From assembly GCF_018343775.1 (NCBI RefSeq), contig NZ_CP074349.1:806001-870000 (forward strand): a stretch of 64,000 nt of DNA, given 5' to 3'. The notes beneath the pieces are model-generated. The model was not told where the DNA came from, did not search any database, and saw only the letters and a list, made by a program, of their open reading frames with translations. A program made the position numbers and the translations under genes. This document shows positions 3,726-16,117 of this stretch, piece after piece (position 1 is the first letter of the stretch; every line of letters starts with the position of its first letter). This DNA is from Pseudomonas cichorii (GTDB taxonomy: Bacteria > Pseudomonadota > Gammaproteobacteria > Pseudomonadales > Pseudomonadaceae).

Positions 3726-4379
3726 TCACCAACTGCCGTAAGGAATGCCATATTTTTCAATGTAGCGTCTGGAGGCATCAGGCTGCTGATAGTAACGACC
3801 ACCTGACTTGCCAAGATGCGGACCCAGGGGTTCCACTTCGGCTTGAGTTCGGGTGACGTTGATTGCTTTGTTGCAACTGTCGCGTACCCACATCTGAACA
3901 ACACCGCCTGGGGCAAGGCCCACAATTACCGATGCTGTGAAACGAGCAGTCTGTTCTGGCTTCTGTGGACAGCGTTGGTGGGTTGATGCTTGCATGATTT
4001 CACGCGCACTTTCCGGAATATCAATCCAGGCCCGGTAAGTCTGGGGTTCTACGACTGACTGCCATCGTACGAAAATTCGTTTTGGCAGATCGGCCCCAAC
4101 TACAGGTTTTATGTTTCCCCCTATTCGATCCCAGCCCTTGGCTACCTCTGTGGCATCGCCCGGGTTGCCAGTACCTATTGCTCCGCCTCCGGGGCGCTCA
4201 AATGTCCTGTCCTGGATGTCCACCACAGAACTGTGTTCGACCAAACCTGGCATATAAGTGGGGGCCATGAAATCCAGACTCCACCATGCGTCTTTTGGAG
4301 AGCTTTTTCCCGGTAAGGCATCTGAGGCCTGACAACCCACTATTAAAAGTACGCCGAGCAGGGCTACGAAAACGCGCAT
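3726..4379 (-). CDS. DUF2931-family lipoprotein, probable immunity protein of the neighbouring effector
   Basis: 217 aa. The N-terminus MRVFVALLGVLLIVGCQAS is a lipoprotein signal with a lipobox ending in Cys16, so it should be membrane-anchored in the periplasm. The pattern WWSLDFMAPTYMP, RWQSVVEPQTYRA, GLAPGGVVQMWV and the final GIPYGSW matches the DUF2931 family as I know it. The start overlaps the stop of the DUF2235 gene (TGATG), so the two are translationally coupled. That pairing and the periplasmic location fit an immunity protein against a type VI lipase effector, as in other Tle-type pairs. No experimental evidence exists here. Confidence 0.75.
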   Translation of the reverse strand: MRVFVALLGVLLIVGCQASDALPGKSSPKDAWWSLDFMAPTYMPGLVEHSSVVDIQDRTFERPGGGAIGTGNPGDATEVAKGWDRIGGNIKPVVGADLPKRIFVRWQSVVEPQTYRAWIDIPESAREIMQASTHQRCPQKPEQTARFTASVIVGLAPGGVVQMWVRDSCNKAINVTRTQAEVEPLGPHLGKSGGRYYQQPDASRRYIEKYGIPYGSW

Positions 4380-5989
4380 CAGAATAGTGTCCAGTCAGGT
4401 ACGTGAGGGTGTTGAACCCTTATGGCATCTGCCGTAGGAGCATTGATATAAACGATACTCAAGCCTCCTCCTGTGCTTTTACCGAGAGGGTGGTTCCAGT
4501 TGGCTGAGGTATGAATGTACCGCACTCTGAGTAGCTGATCTTCTTCAGGTGTCGTGCTGTAGTCTCCCGTGAGAAATCTGTCACAGAGAGGCTGTAAGTC
4601 CGATGGAATGGCGTAGTCAGGATTCCCCTCATCAATCTCATTGAGTCGCACACCATTTTGTTTTGCTAGCTCATACATCACACGCAGGTACACCCTGGAT
4701 AACTTACCGCTCACCGACCGCTTGAGCTGCAAGCCAGCGTACACACGTTTCTGTCGTACCACACTCATGCGATCTTGTGGGTCTGCTGGTAATAGAGACG
4801 GGGGCGGTGTAGTTATTTCAAGCATCATGGCCGGCCAGCCTTTGCTAATCATCTTGGCTTTTTGCTGTTGGGCATCGAGATAGATCGAAGTGCTCTTCAC
4901 ATCCGTCGTAGCTCCAACTGAGAGCGCTTGCATAGGGCTTACCAACACACATTCTTGTGTTTCTTCAAGATACCCTCCTCCGATATCCGAGTGAACACCA
5001 GGCACAGTGATTTCAGAATGGTCGGGGCTGACGCGACTCAGAGCAAAGTTGGCGCGGCATTCATCACGAGCAACCAAATGAATGACATTAGTAAAATATT
5101 TGCGGTCCAGATAAAGCTTGATTCCAGGTGCAACAGCACTTTTTACGTTACCCAGGTTAGCTAACCCTGCAATAGAGGGCACGGTATCAAACAAGCCGAT
5201 AAAACCCATGTTGATATCGCTCTTGTACTGACCGCTAAAAGAGGAGCTAAAAGACTTACTGTTGCTACTTAGTAAACTCCCCAGAGGCCCTTGTTTGCAG
5301 CGAACGACCTCATTCGCAAAATGTCGTGCTGCAGCCGCTCCTCTGCTAAAGCCGAATGTATCAAAGGTCAATGAGCAGATTTCACTGTCTAGGTTCTCTT
5401 GAAGTAAATCATAAAAAAGCACGCTGATTCGACTAAATGCCAGTTTTACTCGCTCGGCTACCCCGGTATCACCACGACCGGTGCCGGAGCCCAGTAAGCT
5501 ATCTTTCTCGCCTGTACTAGTACCGATACCCTCAATATAGGCCATACGAAAGGCTATTTTTCGCTGTCCGTTCCCCTCTGTTTCCGGTGGTGCGTAATAG
5601 AGCTCGCTTAGCTTTTTAACGTTACTGGTGTCATTGCCATAGCTGCTTTCAGGGTCGGACATGAACGGTTTACAACTGGCATCGATATCTGCGGGTGCAA
5701 TAGGGTGATGGGCACCACAGAGCAGACCGGCAGCTGAGTTGTTTGCGTTGTTGCCAGTGCCATCGAAGAACACACCAATGCGCAGAGCAATCGCTGTTTT
5801 TTCTGGTGGCGGTGCGGGGCTTTTTCCGTACTTTTCGTATTCGGCCCAGCGCAGTGCATGAATATCGACTGGTTTAGCTTCTTCGTGGCGATAATTCTTT
5901 GGCTGGTTGGGTACGTATCCACTCATTCCTTGATTCCTGATTTTTTCTCCTTCGTAAAGCCCCAACCATTTATCTAACAGGGTTGGCAC
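4379..5989 (-). CDS. DUF2235 alpha/beta-hydrolase, probable type VI secretion phospholipase effector (Tle1-like)
   Basis: 536 aa from the GTG at 5987-5989. The DUF2235 fold shows FFDGTGN at residues 74-80, the nucleophile elbow GFSRG (Ser215) at 213-217 followed by AAAAR, a likely catalytic Asp in GLFDTVP (about 268) and HSDIGGGY (His333), completing a Ser-Asp-His triad. Tle1-type effectors with this motif hydrolyse phospholipids in the periplasm of rival bacteria. The immunity-like DUF2931 gene follows with overlap. No vgrG or PAAR gene is left nearby. The frame is open upstream of the GTG to the border of the IS element at 6065, so the true N-terminus may have been longer and been cut off by the insertion. 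Confidence 0.78.
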   Translation of the reverse strand: MPTLLDKWLGLYEGEKIRNQGMSGYVPNQPKNYRHEEAKPVDIHALRWAEYEKYGKSPAPPPEKTAIALRIGVFFDGTGNNANNSAAGLLCGAHHPIAPADIDASCKPFMSDPESSYGNDTSNVKKLSELYYAPPETEGNGQRKIAFRMAYIEGIGTSTGEKDSLLGSGTGRGDTGVAERVKLAFSRISVLFYDLLQENLDSEICSLTFDTFGFSRGAAAARHFANEVVRCKQGPLGSLLSSNSKSFSSSFSGQYKSDINMGFIGLFDTVPSIAGLANLGNVKSAVAPGIKLYLDRKYFTNVIHLVARDECRANFALSRVSPDHSEITVPGVHSDIGGGYLEETQECVLVSPMQALSVGATTDVKSTSIYLDAQQQKAKMISKGWPAMMLEITTPPPSLLPADPQDRMSVVRQKRVYAGLQLKRSVSGKLSRVYLRVMYELAKQNGVRLNEIDEGNPDYAIPSDLQPLCDRFLTGDYSTTPEEDQLLRVRYIHTSANWNHPLGKSTGGGLSIVYINAPTADAIRVQHPHVPDWTLF

Positions 5990-6103: not shown

Positions 6104-7009
6104 TCAGGCTGCAACTGATATGGCTGCCTGACTCTGTTCGTATAGTGCCTCAAACTCGGCTGGCGGCCTATTTCCAATAGGTTCCAGCAGACGCTGATGG
6201 TTGAACCAAGTCACCCATTTCAGCGTTTCCCACTCCAGACTTTCTACACTTTTCCACGGCCCTTGCTTGTGGATCAACTCCGTCTTGTAAAGGCCATTCA
6301 TGGTCTCTGCCAGTGCGTTGTCGTAGCTATCACCGGTATTGCCAACCGACGGCTCGATACCCGCTTCGCCCAACCGCTCGCTGTAACGAATCGACAGATA
6401 TTGCGAGCCTCTGTCGCTGTGATGAACCAGCCGATGAGGCTCGGGCCGACGGACGTGAAGTGCCTGTTCGAGCGCATCCAGGACAAACTCCGTACGCATG
6501 TGTCGGCTGACCCGCCAGCCAACGATGAACCTTGAATAGACATCCACGATGAACGCGACATAGGCAAATCCCTGCCAGGTTGAAACGAACGTGAAATCGG
6601 CGACCCAGAGCTGATTGGGACGTTCGGCAGTGAACTGGCGCTTCACTAGATCCCTGGGATTGGCATTGTCAGGATGGGCTTGCGTGGTTTTCACCGTTTT
6701 GCCCCAGGTCACGCCGCAGAGACCCATCTCACGCATCAATCGCTCCACTGTGCAGCGCGCTACTGCCTGATGTTCGCGATGCATCTGCCGCCAGACCTTC
6801 CTGGCCCCATAGACCTCGTAGTTCTCCTGCCAGACACGATGAATCTGTACGGCAAGTGCCTCGTCACGAATCGCTCGGGCAGAGCGTCGTGAGCGATCAC
6901 GTAAACGTGCGGCATGGCACCGGTAAGCCGATGGAGACACTTGCAACACGCGGCACAGTGGCTCGACTCCAAAGCGCTGTCGGTGCTCGTCGATCAGACG
7001 CCAGATCAC
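6104..7009 (-). CDS. IS3-family transposase OrfB (integrase catalytic domain)
   Basis: 301 aa. The rve/DDE domain shows WVADFTFV (first Asp), HSDRGSQY (second Asp) and the late Glu in [15 protein letters not shown], with the HTH-21-like region [12 protein letters not shown] before it. It starts at a GTG that overlaps the orfA stop (GTGA), so it is made by translational coupling or as an OrfAB fusion by frameshifting. The DDE triad is complete. Confidence 0.92.
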
Positions 7010-7314
7010 TTCAAACGACGGTCGAGTTCCGCCTGGGCGAAAAAAGCGCTAGCGACCTTGAGGATCTCATTGGCTCGCTTGAGCTCACGAACCTCGCGCT
7101 CCAGCTCTTTGATCCGGGGATCGGCCGGGGTGCTAGGCGTTGTGGGCGAAGAGGCCTTGCGGATCCAGTTGCTCAAGGTTTGGGCGGTGCATCCGATCTT
7201 GCTGGAAACAGCCTCGATGGCTGCCCACTGAGAATCGTGCGACTCGCGGACTTCGTAGACCATTCGCACAGCACGCTCACGGACTTCGGGGGAAAACTTG
7301 GGTGGCTTTGGCAT
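7006..7314 (-). CDS. IS3-family transposase OrfA (HTH_Tnp_1)
   Basis: 102 aa. The N-terminal helix-turn-helix ([14 protein letters not shown], then [16 protein letters not shown]) is followed by a leucine-zipper-like coiled coil ([16 protein letters not shown]) that dimerises OrfA and recognises the IS ends. Typical length for IS51-group OrfA. Confidence 0.9.
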
Positions 7315-7418
7315 AGTGGCTCCAGTTTCTCAAAAGGTGGAGCCTCCGCGATACCCGGGGCGGTTCAGGCGGGCTTTTTACTCGCAGGTAGGTAAGTGTC
7401 TGAGCCCAGAGAAAATAC

Positions 7419-7441
7419 AAAACCTGCGCAATGCAGGTTTT
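7419..7441 (-). terminator. Rho-independent terminator of DUF6124-like gene A
   Basis: Hairpin AACCTGC-GCAAT-GCAGGTT flanked by A- and T-runs, 13 nt after the stop codon. The same hairpin follows copy B. Confidence 0.75.
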
Positions 7442-7453
7442 GTAATCCACACA

Positions 7454-7681
7454 TCAACGAACCGAAAGATCTTCCAGTGAACGATCAACCTCGGCCTTGG
7501 CCATCTCCACCAGATGGACGACAGACAAAGCCAGATGCCGATGCGAACCACTCAAACGGTCGCCGCTTTCATAGGCTGTTGCTGCGGCGCAGCTCAATAG
7601 CTCGGAAGCACGCACGAGCGCATCTTCAAGGTAGCGAGGGGAGAGATGACAGGGTGGATCCGGTGTGATCTTGAGCATCAT
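7454..7681 (-). CDS. Small DUF6124/DUF3077-like protein, copy A
   Basis: 75 aa starting with two Met codons (7676-7681). It begins MMLKITPDPP, a start common to small Pseudomonas proteins of the DUF6124/DUF3077 type. Two Ala/Leu-rich helices follow, LVRASELLSCAAATAYES and LALSVVHLVEMAKAEV. No catalytic motif or signal peptide is visible and the function is unknown. The protein is identical to that of copy B. The ribosome binding site TGGAG lies in a hairpin (7686-7703) in the leader, so translation is probably controlled. In this copy the leader is also open in frame from about 7831 into the gene, giving a possible 125-aa N-terminally extended form. That is not conserved in copy B, so I prefer the short form. 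Confidence 0.65.
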   Translation of the reverse strand: MMLKITPDPPCHLSPRYLEDALVRASELLSCAAATAYESGDRLSGSHRHLALSVVHLVEMAKAEVDRSLEDLSVR

Positions 7682-7905
7682 GAAACTCCAGTCAGAAGTG
7701 GAGCTGACGCCCTTTGCTGCTAAACGCCAGGCGGCAGCCATGCGCAGGTTAGCAGACCGGAGACTGGCACCCGGCGCACCCGAAGGTGCCCTACGCACGG
7801 CCACCATAAAATGCAGGCCGTAAAAAAGCACCTCGCAAAAGGTGGCGCAGTGCGCCCAGTCGGGTCCGGGCTGCTAAACCCGTTCGCTGAATATGCAGCG
7901 ACGGG
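7682..7905 (-). ncRNA. Structured 5' leader of DUF6124-like gene A (candidate regulatory RNA)
   Basis: Reading on the minus strand, the leader contains in order: hairpin CGCTG-CATATT-CAGCG (7890-7905); segment U, TTTAGCAG (7871-7878), shown in a CGGG/CCCG stem-loop; a terminator-like hairpin CACCT-TTTGCG-AGGTG followed by GC and six T (7821-7844); a UUCG-capped hairpin GCACCTTCGGGTGC; segment M, CTGCTAA (7749-7755); segment D, TTTAGCAG (7717-7724); and hairpin CTCCA...TGGAG (7686-7703) holding the ribosome binding site. M can pair with U (7 bp, then one mismatch, then CCGG) or with D (7 bp). Copy B keeps the pairing with different bases. It is not a known riboswitch to me. Confidence 0.6.
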
Positions 7906-8115
7906 GTGAGAGTAGTGACCGGATTTCATGGGCGCAAGCGGTCGGGATTTTCTAGGAAATTTCGTTCAAGGGAAAGGGAGGCGTCTTGCTATTGTGGGCT
8001 TTGGAGGCTGACTCTTTGTCCATTCAGTGAAGCTCCGTCCAATCTGTTCCGCGTGCGGCAGTTGATATGAGGTCTGCCGTTCTGAGGAAAAAGTCGCGCC
8101 ACTGGCGCGACAATG

Positions 8116-9477
8116 TCAGCTTCCATGGCGCGATTTCCAGAGCATGAGTTCTGATGGTCGTAATCCGTAGCGTGCCAGAACACCCTCGTGCAGTCGGCGG
8201 AGTTCTTCAACGATCAGGGCTTGAACTTCTGGCTGCTCATCCTCTGCAACATGCGTTGTTACCGCGTTCTGAATGCAGCTCAGTGGATCAAGTTCTGGAT
8301 GGCTGACGACTTCGCGAATGGTCGCTTTGATGAAGTCCCGCCAAGTCAGGCGCAGAGGATCAGGTTCTGCAAGGTCTTGTTTGATTGCCAGGTATTCCTG
8401 TGTCGAGCGCTCGTAAGCCCATAGATACAGGTCGCGAAGTAGCTCTACCCGGGTCATTTCGTAGACGCCTAGTGTGGCGCTGCTGTAGGCCTGCTCGGGT
8501 AGATCCAGAAATGTCAGTGGGCACAGGTTGGCGCGAAACAATGGCAGGTTCGCCGCCAGCCGAGAGGTGCGTTTGTTGATGTCGGCAAAGGGCTGCAAAT
8601 AGGGCAGGTGGACCATCATGAAAAATGATTGCTCGAATGGATCAGTAATCTGATTTGCCTTGCCAAGCAGAACGTCCAGCGCCCCCTCTATCTGTTGTGG
8701 TGTGGAGAGAGGGCGATAGGTGCTTTGCCCAATGTCGACGGCGTGCTGGCGAATACGGCCTTCATCTGCGGGGTTGGGAAGCAGGTTTTCAGCCAGGGCG
8801 CTGTGCAGGTTCATCAATGTGTAGCGGTTGAACTCGGCGCTTTCGATGTTCTCGACCAACAGCTCGATTGCCGTTTTATGGTTCAGGATCATCTGTGTTT
8901 CGATAGCAGCTTTGCCTCGTGCAGCTTGGCCATGCTCAATGAGCTGTCGCGTATCGAGCCGCGAATAAGTGTTCCCTTCCAGATTGCTCGATGCCCACGA
9001 TAAGTCAATCAGCAGGCGATTTAGAACTGCGCGGCTGTATGTGCCTGCTGGCTCCACGGCATCTGTCGTTTTTCCCATTCGATGCAGTTGGCGCCGCAAG
9101 GATTCGGACAGATAGCTGGTTTTGTTCGGGTGATAAGAATCCAGAAAATCACGCTGGTAGCCGACGGGCTTGCGCGCTTCTGTTGGTTGGTTGACATAGG
9201 CGAGTATGTCCCGGCTGTCTGCCGACAGTGGGATAAAGGACGGGAAGCTATCACTGCTGATGGCCAGGGTGCTTGTTTCCGGCTGGATATCTGCTGCGAA
9301 ATAGCGTCGTGCTCTGCCCTCACCGTGGGCGGAGATCTGACGGCTCTCGATCAGCTGTGCAATCAGCCTCTGTGCTGTTCTTCGAGCAATGTCAGGGTGC
9401 TTGGTCAGCAGCTCATTCAGTGTCAATCCGCTTCGCGCTGCCTGGATGCTGCTGAGTATTTCAGTGATTGAAGACAT
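8116..9477 (-). CDS. Fic-family protein with winged-helix N-terminus; catalytic His replaced by Gln
   Basis: 453 aa from the ATG at 9475-9477. The frame is open 12 codons further to a TTG, and this short stretch is conserved in the remnant copy. Residues 1-60 form a DeoR/MarR-like winged helix (LTLNELLTKHPDIARRTAQRL). SSNLEGN at 163-169 is the class II inhibitory motif (S/T-x-x-x-E-G/N) that blocks ATP in Fic enzymes. The Fic core at 295-306 reads QPFADINKRTSR where active enzymes have HPF(D/E)xGN(G/K)RxxR, so the catalytic His is Gln. AMP transfer is therefore doubtful, and a regulatory role through the DNA-binding domain is possible. A palindrome upstream (9517-9541) may be its own operator. 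There is no good ribosome binding site at the ATG. Confidence 0.85.
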   Translation of the reverse strand: MSSITEILSSIQAARSGLTLNELLTKHPDIARRTAQRLIAQLIESRQISAHGEGRARRYFAADIQPETSTLAISSDSFPSFIPLSADSRDILAYVNQPTEARKPVGYQRDFLDSYHPNKTSYLSESLRRQLHRMGKTTDAVEPAGTYSRAVLNRLLIDLSWASSNLEGNTYSRLDTRQLIEHGQAARGKAAIETQMILNHKTAIELLVENIESAEFNRYTLMNLHSALAENLLPNPADEGRIRQHAVDIGQSTYRPLSTPQQIEGALDVLLGKANQITDPFEQSFFMMVHLPYLQPFADINKRTSRLAANLPLFRANLCPLTFLDLPEQAYSSATLGVYEMTRVELLRDLYLWAYERSTQEYLAIKQDLAEPDPLRLTWRDFIKATIREVVSHPELDPLSCIQNAVTTHVAEDEQPEVQALIVEELRRLHEGVLARYGLRPSELMLWKSRHGS

Positions 9478-9516
9478 TGCTGAGTTGGCGCCGTTTAGCT
9501 GCTGTTGGCGCAATTG

Positions 9517-9567
9517 TGGCGCAGTTTTCAGAACTGCGCCATTTCTGGTCGGGGATTTGGCGCAGTT
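9517..9567 (-). promoter_or_regulatory. Palindromic operator plus half-site upstream of the Fic gene
   Basis: TGGCGCAGTT-TTCAG-AACTGCGCCA (9517-9541) is a perfect 10-bp-arm inverted repeat 40 bp before the Fic start. A third half-site TGGCGCAGTT lies at 9558-9567, 16 bp further upstream. The same palindrome and the same 16-bp spacing occur upstream of the Fic remnant at 11398-11450. It is a likely binding site for the winged-helix domain of the Fic protein (inference). Confidence 0.65.
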
Positions 9568-9592
9568 TTATGGCACAGGTGGATCAGGATAC

Positions 9593-9615
9593 AAAACCTG
9601 CGCAATGCAGGTTTT
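9593..9615 (-). terminator. Rho-independent terminator of DUF6124-like gene B
   Basis: Same AACCTGC-GCAAT-GCAGGTT hairpin with flanking A and T runs as at 7419-7441, 13 nt after the stop codon. Confidence 0.75.
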
Positions 9616-9627
9616 GTAATCAACACA

Positions 9628-9855
9628 TCAACGAACCGAAAGATCTTCCAGCGAACGATCAACCTCAGCCTTGGCCATCTCCACCAGATGGACGACAGAC
9701 AAGGCCAGATGCCGATGCGAACCACTCAAGCGGTCGCCGCTCTCATAGGCTGTGGCAGCGGCACAACTCAATAGCTCGGAAGCACGCACGAGAGCATCTT
9801 CAAGGTAGCGAGGGGAGAGGTGACAGGGTGGATCAGGTGTGATCTTGAGCATCAT
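9628..9855 (-). CDS. Small DUF6124/DUF3077-like protein, copy B
   Basis: 75 aa, identical in sequence to the product of 7454-7681, starting at the double ATG at 9850-9855. The leader differs from copy A and a TGA closes the extended frame just before the start, so only the short form can be made here. This supports the 75-aa protein as the real product. TGGAG, 18-22 nt from the 5' end of the leader, is again in a small hairpin (9860-9877). The function is unknown. Confidence 0.65.
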   Translation of the reverse strand: MMLKITPDPPCHLSPRYLEDALVRASELLSCAAATAYESGDRLSGSHRHLALSVVHLVEMAKAEVDRSLEDLSVR

Positions 9856-10075
9856 GTAACTCCAGTCAGAAATGGAGCCGCCATGCTCGCGACTAAACGA
9901 TGGGTGGCGGCCATGCGCAGGTTAGTCGACCGGAGACTGGTACCCGGCGCACCCGAAGGTGCCCTACGCACGGCCACCATAAAATGCAGGCCATAAAAAG
10001 CGCCTCGCAAAAGGTGGCGCAGTGCGCCAGTCATCCCGGGCGACTAAACCCGTTCGCTGAATATGCAGCGACGGA
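9856..10075 (-). ncRNA. Structured 5' leader of DUF6124-like gene B (candidate regulatory RNA)
   Basis: Same architecture as the copy A leader. Segment U is TTTAGTCG (10041-10048), M is CGACTAA (9922-9928) and D is TTTAGTCG (9890-9897), so U, M and D all differ from copy A (CAG to TCG, CTG to CGA) while remaining complementary. The terminator-like hairpin (GCGCC...GGCGC, then five T) is at 9995-10020, with the conserved UUCG hairpin and the SD-covering hairpin CTCCA...TGGAG at 9860-9877. Most of the other sequence is unchanged from copy A. Confidence 0.6.
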
Positions 10076-10347
10076 GGCAGAGTAGTGACCGGATTTCACA
10101 GGCGCAAGCGGTTGGGATTTTCTCGGAAATTTCGTTCAAGGGAAAGGGAGGCGTCTTGCTATTGGGGGCTTTGGGAGCTGATCTTTTGCCTGTGCTGTGA
10201 AGATTCGATCTAGTCTGTTCCGCATGCGCCAGTTTTATGAGGTCTACCGCACCGGGTGAAAAGTCGCACCACTGGCGCGACAATTGTCCTGATCGTACAA
10301 CCTAATAATCTTCAACCAGAGGAAACGTCTGGAGCGCCAGTTCAAAG

Positions 10348-11133
10348 CTACGCTGTTCTAGCGCTGAGAGCCTGCATGGTCCGGCATTTGGGAAAACCCG
10401 AGCATCCCCAAAACTGTTGCCCCGCTTTCGCACCTGATTTCACGGTACGAATCAGCAGCGCATTACCGCACTTCGGGCACTGTCGCTCGGCAGTCGGGTC
10501 ACTTCGTTGTTTGAGGTTCTGCACATGCTCACGATGAGTCGCAAGAGCGGGAGCACGGCGGCCTGTTTGCAGCGCTTGCAGCATGAAGTCGACTTCAGAC
10601 TCGCTGAACACCGTCTGCTGGAACGACTTGATGTAACGGATAAATCCAATGCCTTGTGTGACGTTGGCTGGCACTTCGGTTTTGAAGGTGCTGCCTCCAA
10701 CAAAGGTAATGACCGAGTGCAGATGGTCAGGGCTAATGCCCAGCGTGGCCTCCAAAGCCTTGAGGTGTTTGTAGTTCTGCCGCAATGGGTTCTGGAATTT
10801 GAAGGTGCGCTTGTAGAGTTTCTGCGTCCACTGCGCCTGTTTCTCGCTGCCGAAAATCCAGCCGCTCATGTTCTTCGTTTCCAGCACGAAGATGCCGTAG
10901 ATCGAGAGGAATACGTGATCGATCTGCGTGGTGCCGTCGGGCGTATTCAGGGTGACGTTATGCAAGCGACGGTAGATTTGCTCGTCCAGATGTCGATGAG
11001 CAGCGAAGCGCACAAGAAGTTCGCCGATATGCCCTTTGGCCCATGGTGATTTGAGCAGGGTAAGCAGAAGTGCGAACAGAATAAGCCAGCCCAACACGCC
11101 CGATATCTGGGCGATGGCAGGGGTGAAGTCCAT
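10348..11133 (-). CDS. NERD-domain protein with C-terminal zinc finger
   Basis: 261 aa. A hydrophobic N-terminal helix (GVLGWLILFALLLTLL, residues 12-27) would anchor it in the membrane. The nuclease-related domain follows: KGHIGELLV, then TQIDHVFLSIYGIFVLETKN, in which the D and E-x-K residues form the usual PD-(D/E)XK-type site. The C-terminus has a topoisomerase-type C4 zinc finger, CPKCG near 218 and CSGFPKC near 248, probably for nucleic-acid binding. NERD proteins are thought to act on DNA, but their role is mostly unproven. The gene sits where the second duplicated module should have a Fic gene. It was probably acquired by recombination. Confidence 0.85.
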   Translation of the reverse strand: MDFTPAIAQISGVLGWLILFALLLTLLKSPWAKGHIGELLVRFAAHRHLDEQIYRRLHNVTLNTPDGTTQIDHVFLSIYGIFVLETKNMSGWIFGSEKQAQWTQKLYKRTFKFQNPLRQNYKHLKALEATLGISPDHLHSVITFVGGSTFKTEVPANVTQGIGFIRYIKSFQQTVFSESEVDFMLQALQTGRRAPALATHREHVQNLKQRSDPTAERQCPKCGNALLIRTVKSGAKAGQQFWGCSGFPKCRTMQALSARTA

Positions 11134-11219: not shown

Positions 11220-11390
11220 GTGTTTGCATGAGATTCGGGTTGTAGCGATCTGATCGCGTTGCTGCTGCGTTGTTCTTTGAGTAATGCCAGTGTGTTTTGT
11301 CAGTAGCTCAGACTTCTCGCTGCCCTGATGCTGCTGAGTATTTCAGTGCTTGAAGAGATTGCTGAGTTGGCACCGTTTAGCTGTTGTTGG
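11220..11390 (-). pseudogene. Remnant of the 5' end of a second Fic gene
   Basis: Read on the minus strand, the sequence gives QQQLNGANSAISSSTEILSS and then IRAARS, matching the first 30 codons of the intact Fic gene (QQQLNGANSAMSSITEILSS, IQAARS). A TGA follows at 11300-11302. DNA similarity continues to about 11220 out of frame. The ATG has become ATC. Everything downstream is lost, and the NERD gene lies 90 bp further on. Confidence 0.8.
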
Positions 11391-11397
11391 CGAGAAA

Positions 11398-11450
11398 AAT
11401 GGCGCAGTTTTTAGAACTGCGCCATTTCTGTCCGGGAATGTGGCGCAGTT
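11398..11450 (-). promoter_or_regulatory. Second copy of the Fic operator (palindrome plus half-site)
   Basis: AATGGCGCAGTT-TTTAG-AACTGCGCCATT (11398-11426, 12-bp arms) and a half-site TGGCGCAGTT at 11441-11450. The centre base changes (TTCAG to TTTAG) but arms and spacing are conserved relative to 9517-9567, although the gene behind it is dead. Confidence 0.65.
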
Positions 11451-11491
11451 TCATCGCTCTGAAAGCTGCACATTGTCCGAATTTCAGACAC

Positions 11492-11541: not shown

Positions 11542-11808
11542 AGGAGGTGATCCCAGCCAGTAATTTCAAAAAAAATCTTATAAAACAAGGGTATGAATTC
11601 CTGCTGGTGGAGCGTTACCACCCTGGTCCTGTAAAAAATGCCGCCCTTGACGCGGGACGAAGTGAGTATGCCAGCCAACTGCCATCAGGGCCAGAAACCG
11701 ATGCAGAGCATCCACTCTCGGCCAAATTAGAGATGGCGTGACAGCTCCCCGAACCTCTAAAATTAGCGATTTTTGTCGCAGCCTTTGCGCAATTTTCGAG
11801 GGGCGTTT

Positions 11809-13752
11809 ATGGATTATGATCAACTGCCTAGAGCCGCGCTGGTGCGCTTGCTTCAAGAGCATGACGAAGCGCTCGCTGATGCCGGGAAAAATGGCATTGT
11901 CATGAACTACACGGGGCGAGCTGCTCCCTGGCAGATCATCCGGCAGGTCAAGCCCAAGCTCGCCGCCATCGTCAAAAAACACTCCTACGGGGAAGAGCTG
12001 GCTCAGGCTGAGAACGAGATCTGGGACGGCGAAAACCTCTCGGCGATGGTAACTCTCTACAAGTATCGGGGTCAGATCGACCTGGTTGTGACTGACCCTC
12101 CATACAACACGGGTGAGGATTTTCGCTACAACGATAAGTGGGACAAAGATCCAAATGACCCGGATTTGGGGGATGTCGTACCTAAGGATGATGGCTCAAA
12201 GCACAGCAAGTGGCTAAGATTCATGACCCCTCGCATATGGATGATGAGGGAGATGCTGAAGCCTGGTGGAGTGATGGCCATATGCATTGATCACCGGGAA
12301 CTGTTCCGGTTGGGAATGCTGATGGATGAGATCTTCGGTGAAGACAATCGCCTCGCTATTATCAACTGGCAGAAATCAGCGGCTGCCCGTCCAGATAATC
12401 GGCATATCTCGACTGCGACAGAATACGTTTTGGTCTATGGCAAAGATGTCGATAGAGTAAAAACCGCATCCATGACGCGAGGGGAGTCGGATAACAAGCG
12501 CTACTTCAATCCGGACAACGACCCTGGTAACCTCTGGCGGGAGGGTAACCTGACTGCGAAAAGCTACTCTGCCAAAGATGACTATGGTATTCAGTCACCT
12601 TTTACGGGCATCGTACATTATCCAGCGGGTAACGGAGCGTGGCGTCACCCAAAGAAAAATGTCAAAGTCTGGCTGAATGCTTGGGGGCCAGACTACGAAG
12701 AACGTGACATTGGTGATGGTCGCGGCAAAGCCTTAATGGTGAAAAAGCAGCAGCCAGGTGTTCTGGCTGAAAACATCTCAAGAAAATCATATGAAAGATT
12801 ATCACAAGATAATTGGCCTTTCCTATGGTTCGGTCGCGATGGACTTGGCCGACCAAGGGTAAAAACCTATCTTGAGCAAATCAAAAAGGGCAAAGTGCCT
12901 GTTACTTACTGGTCGGATTCCGATCTTAGCTCTGAGTTAGTTACTGATATTGATCTTGGGTCAACATCATGGGACTACAAAGAGTCAGGCAGATCGGCGG
13001 ACGGAGTGGCGGAGCTTACCGCCGTCGTTGGTCAAGGTCATGGTTTTTCAACAGTCAAGCCATTGAAGTTGATGACTAAGATCATTCAGCTTTGGTGCCC
13101 TCCTAACGGAATCGTTATGGATCCTTTTGCAGGTTCTGGGACGACGGCGCATGCTGTTCTCGAACTCAATCAAGAGGCCGATACCTCCAGGCGATTTATT
13201 CTAATTGAGCAGGGGAACACCGAAAAAGGTGACCATTATGCTCGGACACTTACAGCTGAGCGTGTTAAGCGTGTTATGTCTGGAGCATGGGCAGCGGAAA
13301 AGCGTAGGCCAATCCCAAGTGGGTTCCGCTTTATTGAATTGAAGCGTGAAAAGATCGACGCTTCAGCGGTCAATGCTTTAGCCCGTGAAGAGATGATTGA
13401 CTTGCTTTTAACAAGTTACTGGAATAAGGCTGAAAAAGCGAAGTCGTATCTAAGAAGGCTTCCTGCTCAGGCAAATAGACATCTCTTTGCAGTTAATGCA
13501 AAGAATGAGGGCTTTTTCCTGATATGGGATTCACCAGAAAAGGCGTCAGCGTTAACCAAAGCCGCATTTCGAGAGATCGCAGAAGAGGCTAAGAGTGCTG
13601 GGCTTGCTGTGCGATATCATGTGTACGCAGCGTTAGCTCCCTATACTGGCAGCAGTGTAGAATTTTACAAAATTCCAGATCAGGTCCTAGAGCATATTGG
13701 GTTTAATCAGCGTCAGGACTCTTATAACAATGAGGGAGACTTTGATGCCTGA
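11809..13752 (+). CDS. mod: Type III restriction-modification system, modification (Mod) methyltransferase
   Basis: 647 aa from the ATG at 11809 (GAGGGG 8 nt upstream). It is an adenine N6 methyltransferase of the beta class: motif IV DPPYNTG at residues 96-102 precedes motif I DPFAGSGTT at 438-446, the order that defines type III Mod enzymes. The region between them would hold the target recognition domain. It methylates the recognition site and is also required for Res activity. The stop overlaps the res start by 8 bp, so they form an operon. AT content rises through mod and res compared with the flanking core genes, suggesting transfer. The recognition sequence cannot be read from the sequence. 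Confidence 0.92.
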   Translation: MDYDQLPRAALVRLLQEHDEALADAGKNGIVMNYTGRAAPWQIIRQVKPKLAAIVKKHSYGEELAQAENEIWDGENLSAMVTLYKYRGQIDLVVTDPPYNTGEDFRYNDKWDKDPNDPDLGDVVPKDDGSKHSKWLRFMTPRIWMMREMLKPGGVMAICIDHRELFRLGMLMDEIFGEDNRLAIINWQKSAAARPDNRHISTATEYVLVYGKDVDRVKTASMTRGESDNKRYFNPDNDPGNLWREGNLTAKSYSAKDDYGIQSPFTGIVHYPAGNGAWRHPKKNVKVWLNAWGPDYEERDIGDGRGKALMVKKQQPGVLAENISRKSYERLSQDNWPFLWFGRDGLGRPRVKTYLEQIKKGKVPVTYWSDSDLSSELVTDIDLGSTSWDYKESGRSADGVAELTAVVGQGHGFSTVKPLKLMTKIIQLWCPPNGIVMDPFAGSGTTAHAVLELNQEADTSRRFILIEQGNTEKGDHYARTLTAERVKRVMSGAWAAEKRRPIPSGFRFIELKREKIDASAVNALAREEMIDLLLTSYWNKAEKAKSYLRRLPAQANRHLFAVNAKNEGFFLIWDSPEKASALTKAAFREIAEEAKSAGLAVRYHVYAALAPYTGSSVEFYKIPDQVLEHIGFNQRQDSYNNEGDFDA

Positions 13753-16117
13753 TTTTAATCTTAAGGCTTTTCAAGCTGAAGCAGCGAACACCATAGTACA
13801 ACGGTATGCGTTTTTTGCTAATCACCCCTACCGTCCGAGTAAAGGGCCTAAGCCTAGACCTTTCTTTCAAGCACTGTCTGCGTTAACAGGGGCGGGCAAG
13901 ACGCCAATTTTGGCTCAGGCAGTAACCTTGATGCGCTCGCATTTTGCATCTGAGCCAATTGTATTTTGGATGTCTAAAGCAAAGCCTGTAGTTGCTCAGA
14001 CCTATGTAAATTTCAGTGCGGGCGGAAAATACTCGGAAATCGTAGAGGGTTTTCGAGTAATCAATATTTCGCAATTAACACCCCATCATATCGAAGACTC
14101 AGCCACACCTTTGATGATCATGGCTACCACAGGACTCTTTAATAACAAAGATCAGTCTGAAGGTGCTCTGAACGTCTATAAAAAAGATGCTGATCTTTTT
14201 GGCAACTCATCGCCGTGGGAGCGGCTAATTTCGCGAGCATCTAACGGAAAACGTCGACCGCTGCTTATAGTGTATGATGAGGGGCACAATCTTTCAGAGC
14301 AGCAAACAGACATTCTCTCCGAACTGGAACCCGACGCCTACTTACTCGCTAGTGCTACTTTAAAACTGCCCAACAATTTTCACAAAGGAGTCATTCAGCC
14401 CATCAAGCTCTGGGTTGAAGAGTCAGGGGACGATCATGAACAATTTGAGAGACTCAAGTCTATAGACTCCGATGGCCAGCCGAACGCCCAGCTGTTCGTG
14501 ACGACCGCTGTTAGTAGCGAAAAAGTCGTGAGCGCTGAACTCGTCAAAAAGGCAATTCAGTTTGACGGAACCACAGGTGCGATGGAGAAGTCGTTAGATG
14601 ACCTCCATAAGCGACTATCGTCAATTGAAGCTGAAATTAACGCCAGAGGGCTGAGTTTTTCTCCAAAAGCTATCTATGTTTGTAAGACAAACATTGCTGA
14701 TGATGGAGAAAAAGATGATCATTCCAAGCCGTTTTTATTGAGAAAGGCACCGCCGATTAGGATATGGCGTTATCTCGTCGAGGAAAAAGGTATATCTCCT
14801 GAAGATATTGCAATTTATGCAAATCTGGCATTTATGGATGGAAATAAACCTGACGAAGTTAATCTCTTTTCAAAAGGCGAAAAAGACTTTGAGGATTTCC
14901 AGGCTGGCGATTTCAAGCATATAATATTTAACCTTTCTCTCCAGGAAGGCTGGGATGACCCAGGTTGCTATCTTGCCTATATCGATAAAAGTATGGGGTC
15001 CTCAATCCAGGTTGAGCAAATCATAGGCCGAGTTTTAAGGCAGTATGGAGCAAAGCACTACGATAACGCACTTCTTAACTCGGCCCATTTCTTTTTACGT
15101 GTCGATAATCAAAGTGTGTTTACCGCTTCAATTAATGCGGTAAAGGAGAAGCTGAGGGCAGAAGGTGCTCCAATTGAAATTGTTGATAATTTTGGTGGGG
15201 CAGCTGGTGCAGTTGATGATTTGCATCTGAAAGATGGTTTGGAGGTTGCTCTGCATCAGGTGCACGTCGATGCTAGTGAAGCGTGTAACCGGATCGCTGA
15301 AATCGTTGGTGATTTCCCCACCTTCACTGAAAACACCCCGGACACTCAAGGTCAAGCCCATACTGCGACCCAGATAGTTGATCTGGAGTCACTGAATAAG
15401 GATTCAAGTCTAGAGTGGATGCAAGGTGGGAATACTAATCCAGTACGCTTGCGCTGGCTTGTTAATACAGCATTAAGAGCACGTTCTACCCGGGCATTGG
15501 CTGTTACTGATCTGAAACACCCTAAGTTCGATTGTCGAGTACAAATACATAGCGCAGCTGAAAGATATGCTGAGAAGCTGGCAGCTGAAATTGTAGATGC
15601 TTATTATTCGAACTCAGAATTGGCTTACGAGAGTGGTGCTCCGTTCCAGTTTGGGGCTATTAGAGTACCTCGTAATGGCACGACCTACGTCAATTCAATT
15701 TATGAAAAATACTCAGGTTTGAATAAATTTGAGGCGCCTTTTGCAGATTCTTTAGATAAAGCAGGTTTTCCTTGGCACCGCAACTCCAGCAGCGGCGGGT
15801 TCCATATCCCTCTTCTTACGGAAGGGGATGCGGGATCATTTTATCCTGATTTTTTAGTGTGGAAGTCTGGGCTTGTCTACTGCCTTGATACTAAAGGTGG
15901 TCACCTTCTAAGTGACGCAGTTGCCAGAAAGCTATTTGACATTCAGGAAGATGGTCGCAGTAAGGTTTTAGTGCGCTTCATTACTGAGGGCAAGCAAACT
16001 GAGTTGCGCGGGAAGTGTTTAAAAGGCGGCTATACAGTTTGGAAAATGAAGTCCGGCACTCCAACGCCTATTCATGTTGCCGATCTTGATAAAGCAGTTA
16101 AAGAGTGTCTTAAATAG
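13745..16117 (+). CDS. res: Type III restriction enzyme, Res subunit (helicase-nuclease)
   Basis: 790 aa from the ATG at 13745 (GGGAG upstream, overlapping the mod stop). SF2 helicase motifs are clear: Walker A TGAGKT at 48-53, DEGH at 178-181, SAT in LASATL, and a late motif VI with QEGWDDP and QIIGRVLRQYG. Near the C-terminus YPDFLVW followed by CLDTKG forms a PD-(D/E)XK endonuclease site. It translocates or diffuses along DNA in complex with Mod and cuts when sites are unmodified, defending against phage. Full length for the family. An IS3 element lies 36 bp after its stop without damaging it. Confidence 0.92.
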   Translation: MPDFNLKAFQAEAANTIVQRYAFFANHPYRPSKGPKPRPFFQALSALTGAGKTPILAQAVTLMRSHFASEPIVFWMSKAKPVVAQTYVNFSAGGKYSEIVEGFRVINISQLTPHHIEDSATPLMIMATTGLFNNKDQSEGALNVYKKDADLFGNSSPWERLISRASNGKRRPLLIVYDEGHNLSEQQTDILSELEPDAYLLASATLKLPNNFHKGVIQPIKLWVEESGDDHEQFERLKSIDSDGQPNAQLFVTTAVSSEKVVSAELVKKAIQFDGTTGAMEKSLDDLHKRLSSIEAEINARGLSFSPKAIYVCKTNIADDGEKDDHSKPFLLRKAPPIRIWRYLVEEKGISPEDIAIYANLAFMDGNKPDEVNLFSKGEKDFEDFQAGDFKHIIFNLSLQEGWDDPGCYLAYIDKSMGSSIQVEQIIGRVLRQYGAKHYDNALLNSAHFFLRVDNQSVFTASINAVKEKLRAEGAPIEIVDNFGGAAGAVDDLHLKDGLEVALHQVHVDASEACNRIAEIVGDFPTFTENTPDTQGQAHTATQIVDLESLNKDSSLEWMQGGNTNPVRLRWLVNTALRARSTRALAVTDLKHPKFDCRVQIHSAAERYAEKLAAEIVDAYYSNSELAYESGAPFQFGAIRVPRNGTTYVNSIYEKYSGLNKFEAPFADSLDKAGFPWHRNSSSGGFHIPLLTEGDAGSFYPDFLVWKSGLVYCLDTKGGHLLSDAVARKLFDIQEDGRSKVLVRFITEGKQTELRGKCLKGGYTVWKMKSGTPTPIHVADLDKAVKECLK

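Follow-up and report, generated by a model that had tools for sequence, protein, structure and literature searches.

C4-type antisense RNAs predicted in front of two DUF6124 genes of Pseudomonas cichorii and their relatives in the genus

Introduction

The C4 RNA of phage P1 was reported to be processed and to act in trans (PMC5320573, PMC8546580). In the available parts of these reports, RNase P cuts C4 in P1, and read coverage suggests the same for Acinetobacter baumannii (PMC5320573, PMC8546580); the b' segment of P1 covers the ribosome binding site, and a difference of 4 nucleotides (nt) between the C4 RNAs of P1 and P7 is said to limit cross-reaction (PMC5320573). In A. baumannii AB5075, 21 Group 1 C4-like small RNAs (sRNAs) with variable a' loops were described, which are reported to be expressed and apparently processed at a GGW site (PMC5320573). 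C4 was predicted in Pseudomonadales and other orders by Weinberg et al. in 2010 (cited in PMC5320573), so the occurrence of C4 in Pseudomonadales was already known. The present work concerns two leaders, each preceding a gene of the DUF6124 family, in a stretch of 64,000 nt of Pseudomonas cichorii (assembly GCF_018343775.1, contig NZ_CP074349.1, positions 806,001 to 870,000), below called the window and numbered from its first letter. Judged by their family matches and anatomy, both leaders are C4 antisense RNAs with a1b1 and a2b2 targets of their own.

Results

Family identity and anatomy of the two leaders

In the Rfam scan of the window, both leaders exceed the gathering threshold of 45 bits for RF01695, the C4 antisense RNA (74.8 bits for copy A and 79.3 bits for copy B), as well as the threshold of 46.7 bits for RF03163, the a1b1 targets of C4 (58.9 and 50.1 bits, respectively). 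With the same C4 model, the C4 of phage P1 itself scores 68.8 bits, below either window copy. The leaders belong to two minus-strand cassettes of about 700 bp each, which are 84-97% alike piece by piece and represent a segmental duplication. Each cassette consists of a promoter, a structured leader and a gene for a protein of 75 amino acids (aa), with the following features.

Copy A
7932..7937, minus strand: -35 box TTGCGC, read from the sequence; TTG at that distance from U is conserved in 131 leaders (see below)
7909..7914, minus strand: -10 box TACTCT, 17-nt spacer; TAnnnT at -36 to -31 from U is conserved in 131 leaders
7863..7915, minus strand: c4-a1b1 target element, Rfam RF03163, 58.9 bits
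7871..7878, minus strand: segment U, the putative a1 target TTTAGCAG, with GGG..CCC flanks, from sequence and covariation
7856..7861, minus strand: GACTGG, likely the b1 target, complementary to the C4 loop CCAGTC and placed by position as in P1
7727..7811, minus strand: C4 antisense RNA, Rfam RF01695, 74.8 bits
7762..7769, minus strand: b' loop TGCCAGTC in the CCGG hairpin, predicted to pair with the Shine-Dalgarno region
7749..7755, minus strand: segment M, the putative a' CTGCTAA, from sequence and covariation
7717..7724, minus strand: segment D, the putative a2 target TTTAGCAG, from sequence and covariation
7686..7693, minus strand: putative b2 target including the Shine-Dalgarno sequence, GACTGGAG; pairing with b' tested over 131 loci
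7454..7681, minus strand: DUF6124 gene, 75 aa, Pfam PF19619, 56.8 bits with a cut-off of 27
7416..7444, minus strand: terminator-like palindrome 3' of the gene, a repeat arm; palindrome and T-run identified by eye

Copy B
10102..10107, minus strand: -35 box TTGCGC, from sequence and conservation in 131 leaders
10079..10084, minus strand: -10 box TACTCT, from sequence and conservation in 131 leaders
10033..10085, minus strand: c4-a1b1 target element, Rfam RF03163, 50.1 bits
10041..10048, minus strand: segment U, the putative a1 target TTTAGTCG, from sequence and covariation
10027..10032, minus strand: GACTGG, likely the b1 target, complementary to the C4 loop CCAGTC and placed by position as in P1
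9900..9984, minus strand: C4 antisense RNA, Rfam RF01695, 79.3 bits
9935..9942, minus strand: putative b' loop TACCAGTC, from loop analysis and pairing energies
9922..9928, minus strand: segment M, the putative a' CGACTAA, from sequence and covariation
9890..9897, minus strand: segment D, the putative a2 target TTTAGTCG, from sequence and covariation
9860..9867, minus strand: putative b2 target including the Shine-Dalgarno sequence, GACTGGAG, from sequence and b' pairing over 131 loci
9628..9855, minus strand: DUF6124 gene, 75 aa, protein equal to that of copy A, by Pfam and gene comparison
9590..9618, minus strand: terminator-like palindrome 3' of the gene, a repeat arm; palindrome identified by eye

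Segments U, M and D had been described in the initial annotation of this DNA, and were found in both leaders at the minus-strand positions given there. Two bases differ between the copies at each site, all six changes preserve the complementarity of M to both U and D, and M pairs at 7 of 7 positions with U and at 7 of 7 with D in either copy. The DUF6124-like nature of the two genes, named in the same annotation, is confirmed by the Pfam match of 56.8 bits; both encode one and the same 75-aa protein, and a comparison of the 228-nt genes shows 12 differences, every one of them synonymous.

The immI record of P1 annotates a1, b1, C4, a2, b2, icd and ant1. Both a1 and a2 of P1 read TTGACAG, and its C4 holds exact complements of a1/a2 and of b2, the complement of b1 being absent. 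Since a1 of P1 equals a2 and has its complement in C4, segments U, M and D correspond to a1, a' and a2. The order of elements is the same in P1 and in the window, namely, promoter, a1b1, C4 and a2b2, with the ribosome binding site being targeted, and a GG motif opens the outer stem of C4 in the window leaders as in P1. By Rfam boundaries, a1 is separated from C4 by 82 nt in P1 and by 67 and 64 nt in the window copies, and the end of C4 from a2 by 1 nt in P1 and by 3 nt in both window copies; the distance from a2 to the start codon is 47 nt in P1 and 43 and 42 nt in the window. By the matches to the Rfam families C4 and c4-a1b1 and by the anatomy shared with P1, the leaders are C4 antisense RNAs with their targets rather than an unnamed cis switch.

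Three-way relation of U, M and D over 131 leaders

Leaders of the window's genome (G000; 15) and of the genomes G005 (39), G010 (35) and G019 (42) were aligned with MAFFT, and base pairs were counted; these 131 leaders come from 136 C4 matches, from which four matches below the family cut-off and the truncated L016 were left out. M and U are paired in 874 of 912 cells (95.8%), compared with a mean of 0.704 and a maximum of 0.737 in 300 shuffles of partners among loci. For M and D, 836 of 911 cells are paired (91.8%; shuffled mean 0.694, maximum of 300 shuffles 0.727), and pairing falls to 0.25-0.44 when D is shifted by 1-2 columns, a control made for M-D alone. All seven pairs are formed between M and U in 112/131 leaders and between M and D in 101/131; U equals D as an 8-mer in 102/131, and 40 distinct M 7-mers were found. 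The comparison with other loci proposed in the initial annotation thus shows that U, M and D are not independent, and their coordinated relation is not due to chance. Complementarity to M is conserved in U no less strictly than in D, although U lies in the 5' part that would be lost upon processing.

Likeness of the three segments could also be the functionless remnant of an ordinary duplicated repeat, an explanation in line with the segmental duplication of the two cassettes. It is contradicted by the coordinated change at three sites over 131 leaders with 40 a' codes; the presence of synonymous changes alone between the window genes and the membership of both leaders in Rfam families speak against it as well, and we consider it hardly credible.

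A stem of 3 bp is possible around U in 127/131 leaders and around D in 97/131; since complementary arms flank both segments, U and D may both be displayed in loops.

As another alternative to a C4-type RNA acting in trans, the leader could be a cis switch, in which M pairs with either U or D in one nascent RNA, a terminator-like hairpin serves as the output, and no free small RNA is formed. The positions of U, M and D do place them on a single transcript, a terminator-like hairpin with a T-run is present between U and M in both window copies, as had been noted at first, and complete pairing of M with U is kept slightly better than that with D. However, the hairpin was detected in only 12/131 leaders (1.2 expected) and is not a general part of them, so that no conserved expression platform is seen; the CCGG extension of the U-M pairing by 4 bp, also proposed initially, occurs in 41/131 leaders with 38.0 expected by shuffling (maximum 46) and shows no covariation. 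In addition, pairing of b' with the Shine-Dalgarno region (see below) would be superfluous for a choice between U and D, and C4 of P1, to which the leaders match, is processed and trans-acting according to the available text of PMC8546580. A cis switch is therefore improbable. Of the proposal that M pairs with U or D, or that U pairs in trans as a loop, the complementarity of M to both segments holds and action in trans is the mode reported for the family in the same text (PMC8546580), while the switch in cis is unsupported. The terminator as a general switch was rejected on the count of 12/131 leaders.

Of the other elements, the hairpin covering the ribosome binding site, which had been described as conserved in the two leaders, is represented by CTCC...GGAG in 45/131 leaders, a count made without a control. 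TTG at -59 and TAnnnT at -36 from U are conserved by position over the 131 leaders (0.4-0.8 bits), and the best-match promoter score of the leaders is no higher than that of shuffled sequence (7.02 vs 6.95).

Second code and target specificity

In both window copies, the C4 loop CCAGTC is complementary to GACTGG of GACTGGAG, located directly 5' of the start codon. This loop closes the CCGG hairpin and is the b' element, TGCCAGTC in copy A and TACCAGTC in copy B; the code CCAGTC/GACTGG is common to both copies. By its complementarity, b' is a second specificity element, absent, along with the family identity, from the initial annotation. Distinct b' loops within a genome number 15/15, 33/35, 38/39 and 42/42, and distinct a' 7-mers 9/15, 19/35, 27/39 and 23/42; b' is the most variable part of the code across the wider family.

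To assess specificity, the energy of a' on the a2 window was combined with that of b' on the Shine-Dalgarno window for each C4 and every target of its genome. The cognate target is the best one for 12/15, 27/35, 31/39 and 36/42 C4 RNAs (106/131 in all), with about one per genome expected by chance, and for 86/131 the best foreign target is more than 2 kcal/mol worse. Runs of complementarity were compared at twenty further loci, 12 of which head the list for the genus and 8 of which lie outside it: the medians for own targets are 7 (a'-a2), 7 (a'-a1) and 10 (b'-Shine-Dalgarno), compared with 5, 5 and 6 for foreign ones, and no foreign target has a longer run in 16/20, 17/20 and 17/20 loci, respectively. 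The predicted two-part code mostly fits its own target.

DUF6124 and other genes downstream of C4

In the four genomes, 111 DUF6124 genes were found above the Pfam cut-off, of which 96 have a same-strand C4 within 450 nt upstream, mostly about 200 nt from the DUF6124 domain; likewise, 96 of the 136 C4 matches have DUF6124 as the next gene. Nine proteins downstream of the other 40 C4 matches were scanned with Pfam, and two Bro-N (antirepressor type), two DUF3077 and five proteins without a family were obtained. A search with the window protein led to 23 named Pseudomonas loci, 18 of which have C4 upstream of the match; of the five without it, the contig of L135 holds only about 220 nt upstream. 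Outside the genus, a SymE_toxin gene is located next to C4 at L189 in G188 (48.8 bits, cut-off 29), and both the a and b codes of this C4 match its SymE_toxin target; Bro-N is located next to C4 at L192, and three further scanned proteins have no family above the cut-off.

The DUF6124 protein is predicted to form a hairpin of two helices with a predicted local distance difference test score (pLDDT) of 78, the model being based on an alignment of 35 sequences, made up of the window protein plus 34 of 43 detected relatives. No matches to the window protein were found among PDB sequences, no match of DUF6124 was found in PHROGs, and a Foldseek search of the model against viral structures gave nothing below an E-value of 0.8. 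The window protein had no tblastn match in 50,697 phage records (E-value 0.01), and another DUF6124 protein had none in 72,556 plasmid records (E-value 0.001), searches in which distant relatives could be missed. The presence of SymE and Bro-N behind other C4 RNAs suggests, by analogy, a toxin- or antirepressor-like role of DUF6124.

Copy number and distribution

The window's genome contains 16 C4 matches, 15 of them above the cut-off, and its three relatives contain 42, 42 and 36, with 39, 41 and 35 above the cut-off. In a sample of 99 Pseudomonas genomes, including that of the window, at least one C4 match was found in 92 and none in 7; the median is 13 copies per genome, with at least 10 copies in 58 genomes and at least 30 in 20. 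In this survey a per-genome count of 39 equals the number of scored candidates, so it is a lower bound. A class-wide sample showed C4 in 5 of 142 other genomes, with one to three copies each, and a survey of relatives in 25 of 38 genomes, comprising 23/25 of the genus and 2/13 of the order.

Several loci contain tandem units. At L115 (G019, 1820000-1828400), an array of four C4-DUF6124 units encodes near-identical proteins; the four b' loops differ, and two units share an a' code. At L084 (G005, 3628000-3631500), three such units with near-identical proteins are present, and two of the three C4 copies are identical. At L050 (G010, 740100-742700), two adjacent units have both codes equal; the second gene lacks the start region, so there is one intact gene behind two equal locks. 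In the window's genome, the C4 at L015 (5787061-5787146, minus strand) carries the B code CGACTAA and seems to be an orphan, with no recognisable targets or gene downstream; it could act on copy B in trans.

Code change and possible insulation between paralogues

According to the initial annotation, a copy-specific code would keep the two leaders from cross-talking. This idea is borne out only in part: the a' codes do differ between the copies, but b' is the same, and the predicted pairing energies are -19.0 kcal/mol for A on A, -17.2 for A on B, -18.6 for B on B and -13.7 for B on A, so that the C4 of copy A loses only 1.8 kcal/mol on the target of copy B. Based on these energies, a barrier is expected mainly against the C4 of copy B acting on copy A; in the opposite direction, leakage between the two copies is predicted.

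A more general explanation of the variety of codes is that they insulate paralogous modules: if two modules had one code in common, the C4 of either could silence the other, and selection would for that reason drive the codes apart. The protein comparison, which used 129 loci, gave 34 pairs from one genome whose proteins are at least 90% identical over the called genes; in not one of these pairs is the b' loop common to the two members, nor are both codes; the tandem pairs of L050 and L084, which are outside the 34, do share both codes, and one gene of each pair lacks the start region. Two genomes, that of the window and that of P. capsici, were found to contain a pair of near-identical window-type cassettes, and in both of them one cassette carries the A-code and the other the B-code. 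P. cichorii MAFF 302096 (L129), which has the same NERD neighbour as copy B and a gene one synonymous change away, carries an A-code leader; an A-type leader beside the neighbour and gene of copy B means that the leader, not the protein, was replaced at that locus. On the other hand, near-cognate off-target pairing amounts to 5.5% within genomes and 5.1% between them; as it is no rarer within genomes, selection for insulation is not shown. At protein identities of 0.5-0.7 and 0.7-0.9, the near-cognate fractions are 0.049 within vs 0.082 between genomes (n = 1016 and 550) and 0.078 vs 0.100 (n = 206 and 50), respectively, comparisons in which orthologues inflate the between-genome side. The a' code CTGCTAA is common to 6 of the 15 C4 RNAs of the window's genome, the window copies have one b' code and the small energy difference given above, and very few code changes at a single locus were found. 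Between L131 and L132, a three-site change between the TTTAGTAG and TTTAGTCG forms was observed. Selection for insulation is thus an arguable explanation with a chance somewhat short of even.

Neighbouring genes

The genes upstream of the cassettes, assigned by Pfam and PADLOC, differ: a Fic/SoFic-like gene (8116-9513, minus strand) precedes copy A, and a NERD gene similar to the N-terminal part of PglW (10348-11133, minus strand) precedes copy B. In the relatives L127, L128 and L130, the neighbours of the cassette differ again and are defence-like by eye. A repeated flank with palindromes of the GGCGCAGTT type, 91% alike over 80 nt and 88% alike over 58 nt, is located at 9431-9574 and 11313-11457. 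It lies upstream of the Fic and NERD genes or at their starts, as if gene cargo had been exchanged between shared flanks.

The 139 proteins around 18 other DUF6124 loci gave matches to 148 PADLOC models, with Septu PtuA/PtuB, retron and Iet models among the 25 listed, while 19 models (BREX, DarT/DarG, mads) match at 18 control positions (125 proteins); because many PADLOC models match one protein, the two sets are not strictly comparable. In the Pfam scan around the 18 DUF6124 loci, the first 25 of 119 families are mostly those of ordinary genes. Association with defence islands was rejected as a candidate: real systems are present in both the DUF6124 and control sets, and enrichment is not shown.

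Elsewhere in this part of the window, a type III restriction-modification-like pair of methyltransferase and helicase genes was found at 11773-16117 (plus strand), and an IS3-type transposase pair lies directly past copy A at 6104-7314 (minus strand), with an ALIL frameshift pseudoknot at 6932-7048. A gene for a Tle1-like phospholipase effector of the type VI secretion system and a DUF2931 gene are located at 3726-5989 (minus strand) and are possibly an effector and its immunity protein.

Discussion

Proposed mechanism

Family identity, anatomy, the three-way covariation, the preference of both codes for the cognate target and the linkage to DUF6124 are established here. A leader would be transcribed from a promoter with a putative start about 24 nt before U, giving a transcript with the order promoter, a1b1, C4, a2b2 over the ribosome binding site and the DUF6124 gene; U, in the 5' portion of this transcript, would serve as the a1 target. 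C4 would fold into an outer stem, a tetraloop hairpin and the CCGG hairpin, and, as in P1 and A. baumannii, would be cut out of the leader. The released C4 would pair in trans with DUF6124 mRNAs of the same code, a' (M) with a2 (D) and b' with the Shine-Dalgarno region, and block translation of DUF6124 as in the case of icd/ant in P1. In P1, repression is lifted upon entry into a cell without C4. By analogy with these systems we infer processing and repression in vivo; DUF6124 may have a toxic or regulatory role. We assign a probability of about 0.9 to the conclusion that each leader holds a C4-type antisense RNA along with targets of its own, and that this RNA represses DUF6124 mRNA of the same code in trans.

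Several observations weigh against this conclusion. Of the 131 C4 RNAs, 25 show no cognate preference, and some loci are decayed, for example, L015, without recognisable targets. U in a crude upstream window gives weaker cognate ranks (9/15, 15/35, 12/39 and 9/42), and the pairing energies come from a simple duplex model with preset windows that ignores accessibility. Icd and DUF6124 have no detectable similarity (17 bits), and immI of P1 carries icd followed by ant downstream, whereas DUF6124 in the window is followed by a terminator-like palindrome.

More tentatively, and with the odds against it, the Pseudomonas loci might form a network of private keys: dozens of domesticated C4 locks, each with a two-part code fitting mainly its own mRNA, would control small helical proteins, among them DUF6124 and DUF3077. 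Such modules would be RNA-silenced growth regulators or toxins that duplicate, keep the protein and change their codes by leader swaps. If this is true, each module stays under its own control.

Comparison with known systems

C4 has hitherto been known mainly as a phage immunity RNA. With up to 42 copies per genome and targets named by linkage and code, the loci provide more than 100 natural RNA pairs, useful for learning about antisense specificity and its change after duplication. DUF6124 and DUF3077 gain a first regulatory setting, and a large and little-studied regulatory family becomes testable, many Pseudomonas chromosomes carrying a dozen or more C4 RNAs. In the available parts of the open-licence literature (PMC2864571, PMC12197685, PMC12189769, PMC8546580, PMC6978653, PMC5320573), neither a Pseudomonas C4 family nor a link between C4 and DUF6124 is described; for DUF6124, no open-licence literature was found, and DUF3077 is mentioned incidentally alone.

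In the type I toxin-antitoxin system SymE/SymR, as set out in the accessible text of PMC4147584, an RNA likewise blocks translation of a small protein; that RNA comes from the opposite strand, whereas C4 and its target are transcribed from one strand. In contrast to the phages P1 and P7, many C4 copies are present per Pseudomonas chromosome. The nearest precedent is the C4-like set of A. baumannii AB5075, which, as in Pseudomonas, is a large set in one genome (PMC5320573). In the available sections of that account, no genes are named as targets, and transcripts of phages or of other bacteria are suggested instead (PMC5320573), while in Pseudomonas the predicted target lies immediately downstream of C4 in the same orientation and is fitted by both codes. 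The kind of RNA is thus already known and the individual leaders are new; what appears to be new is the setting, namely, DUF6124 as the target, the very large number of copies and a code of two parts that in most cases suits its own target.

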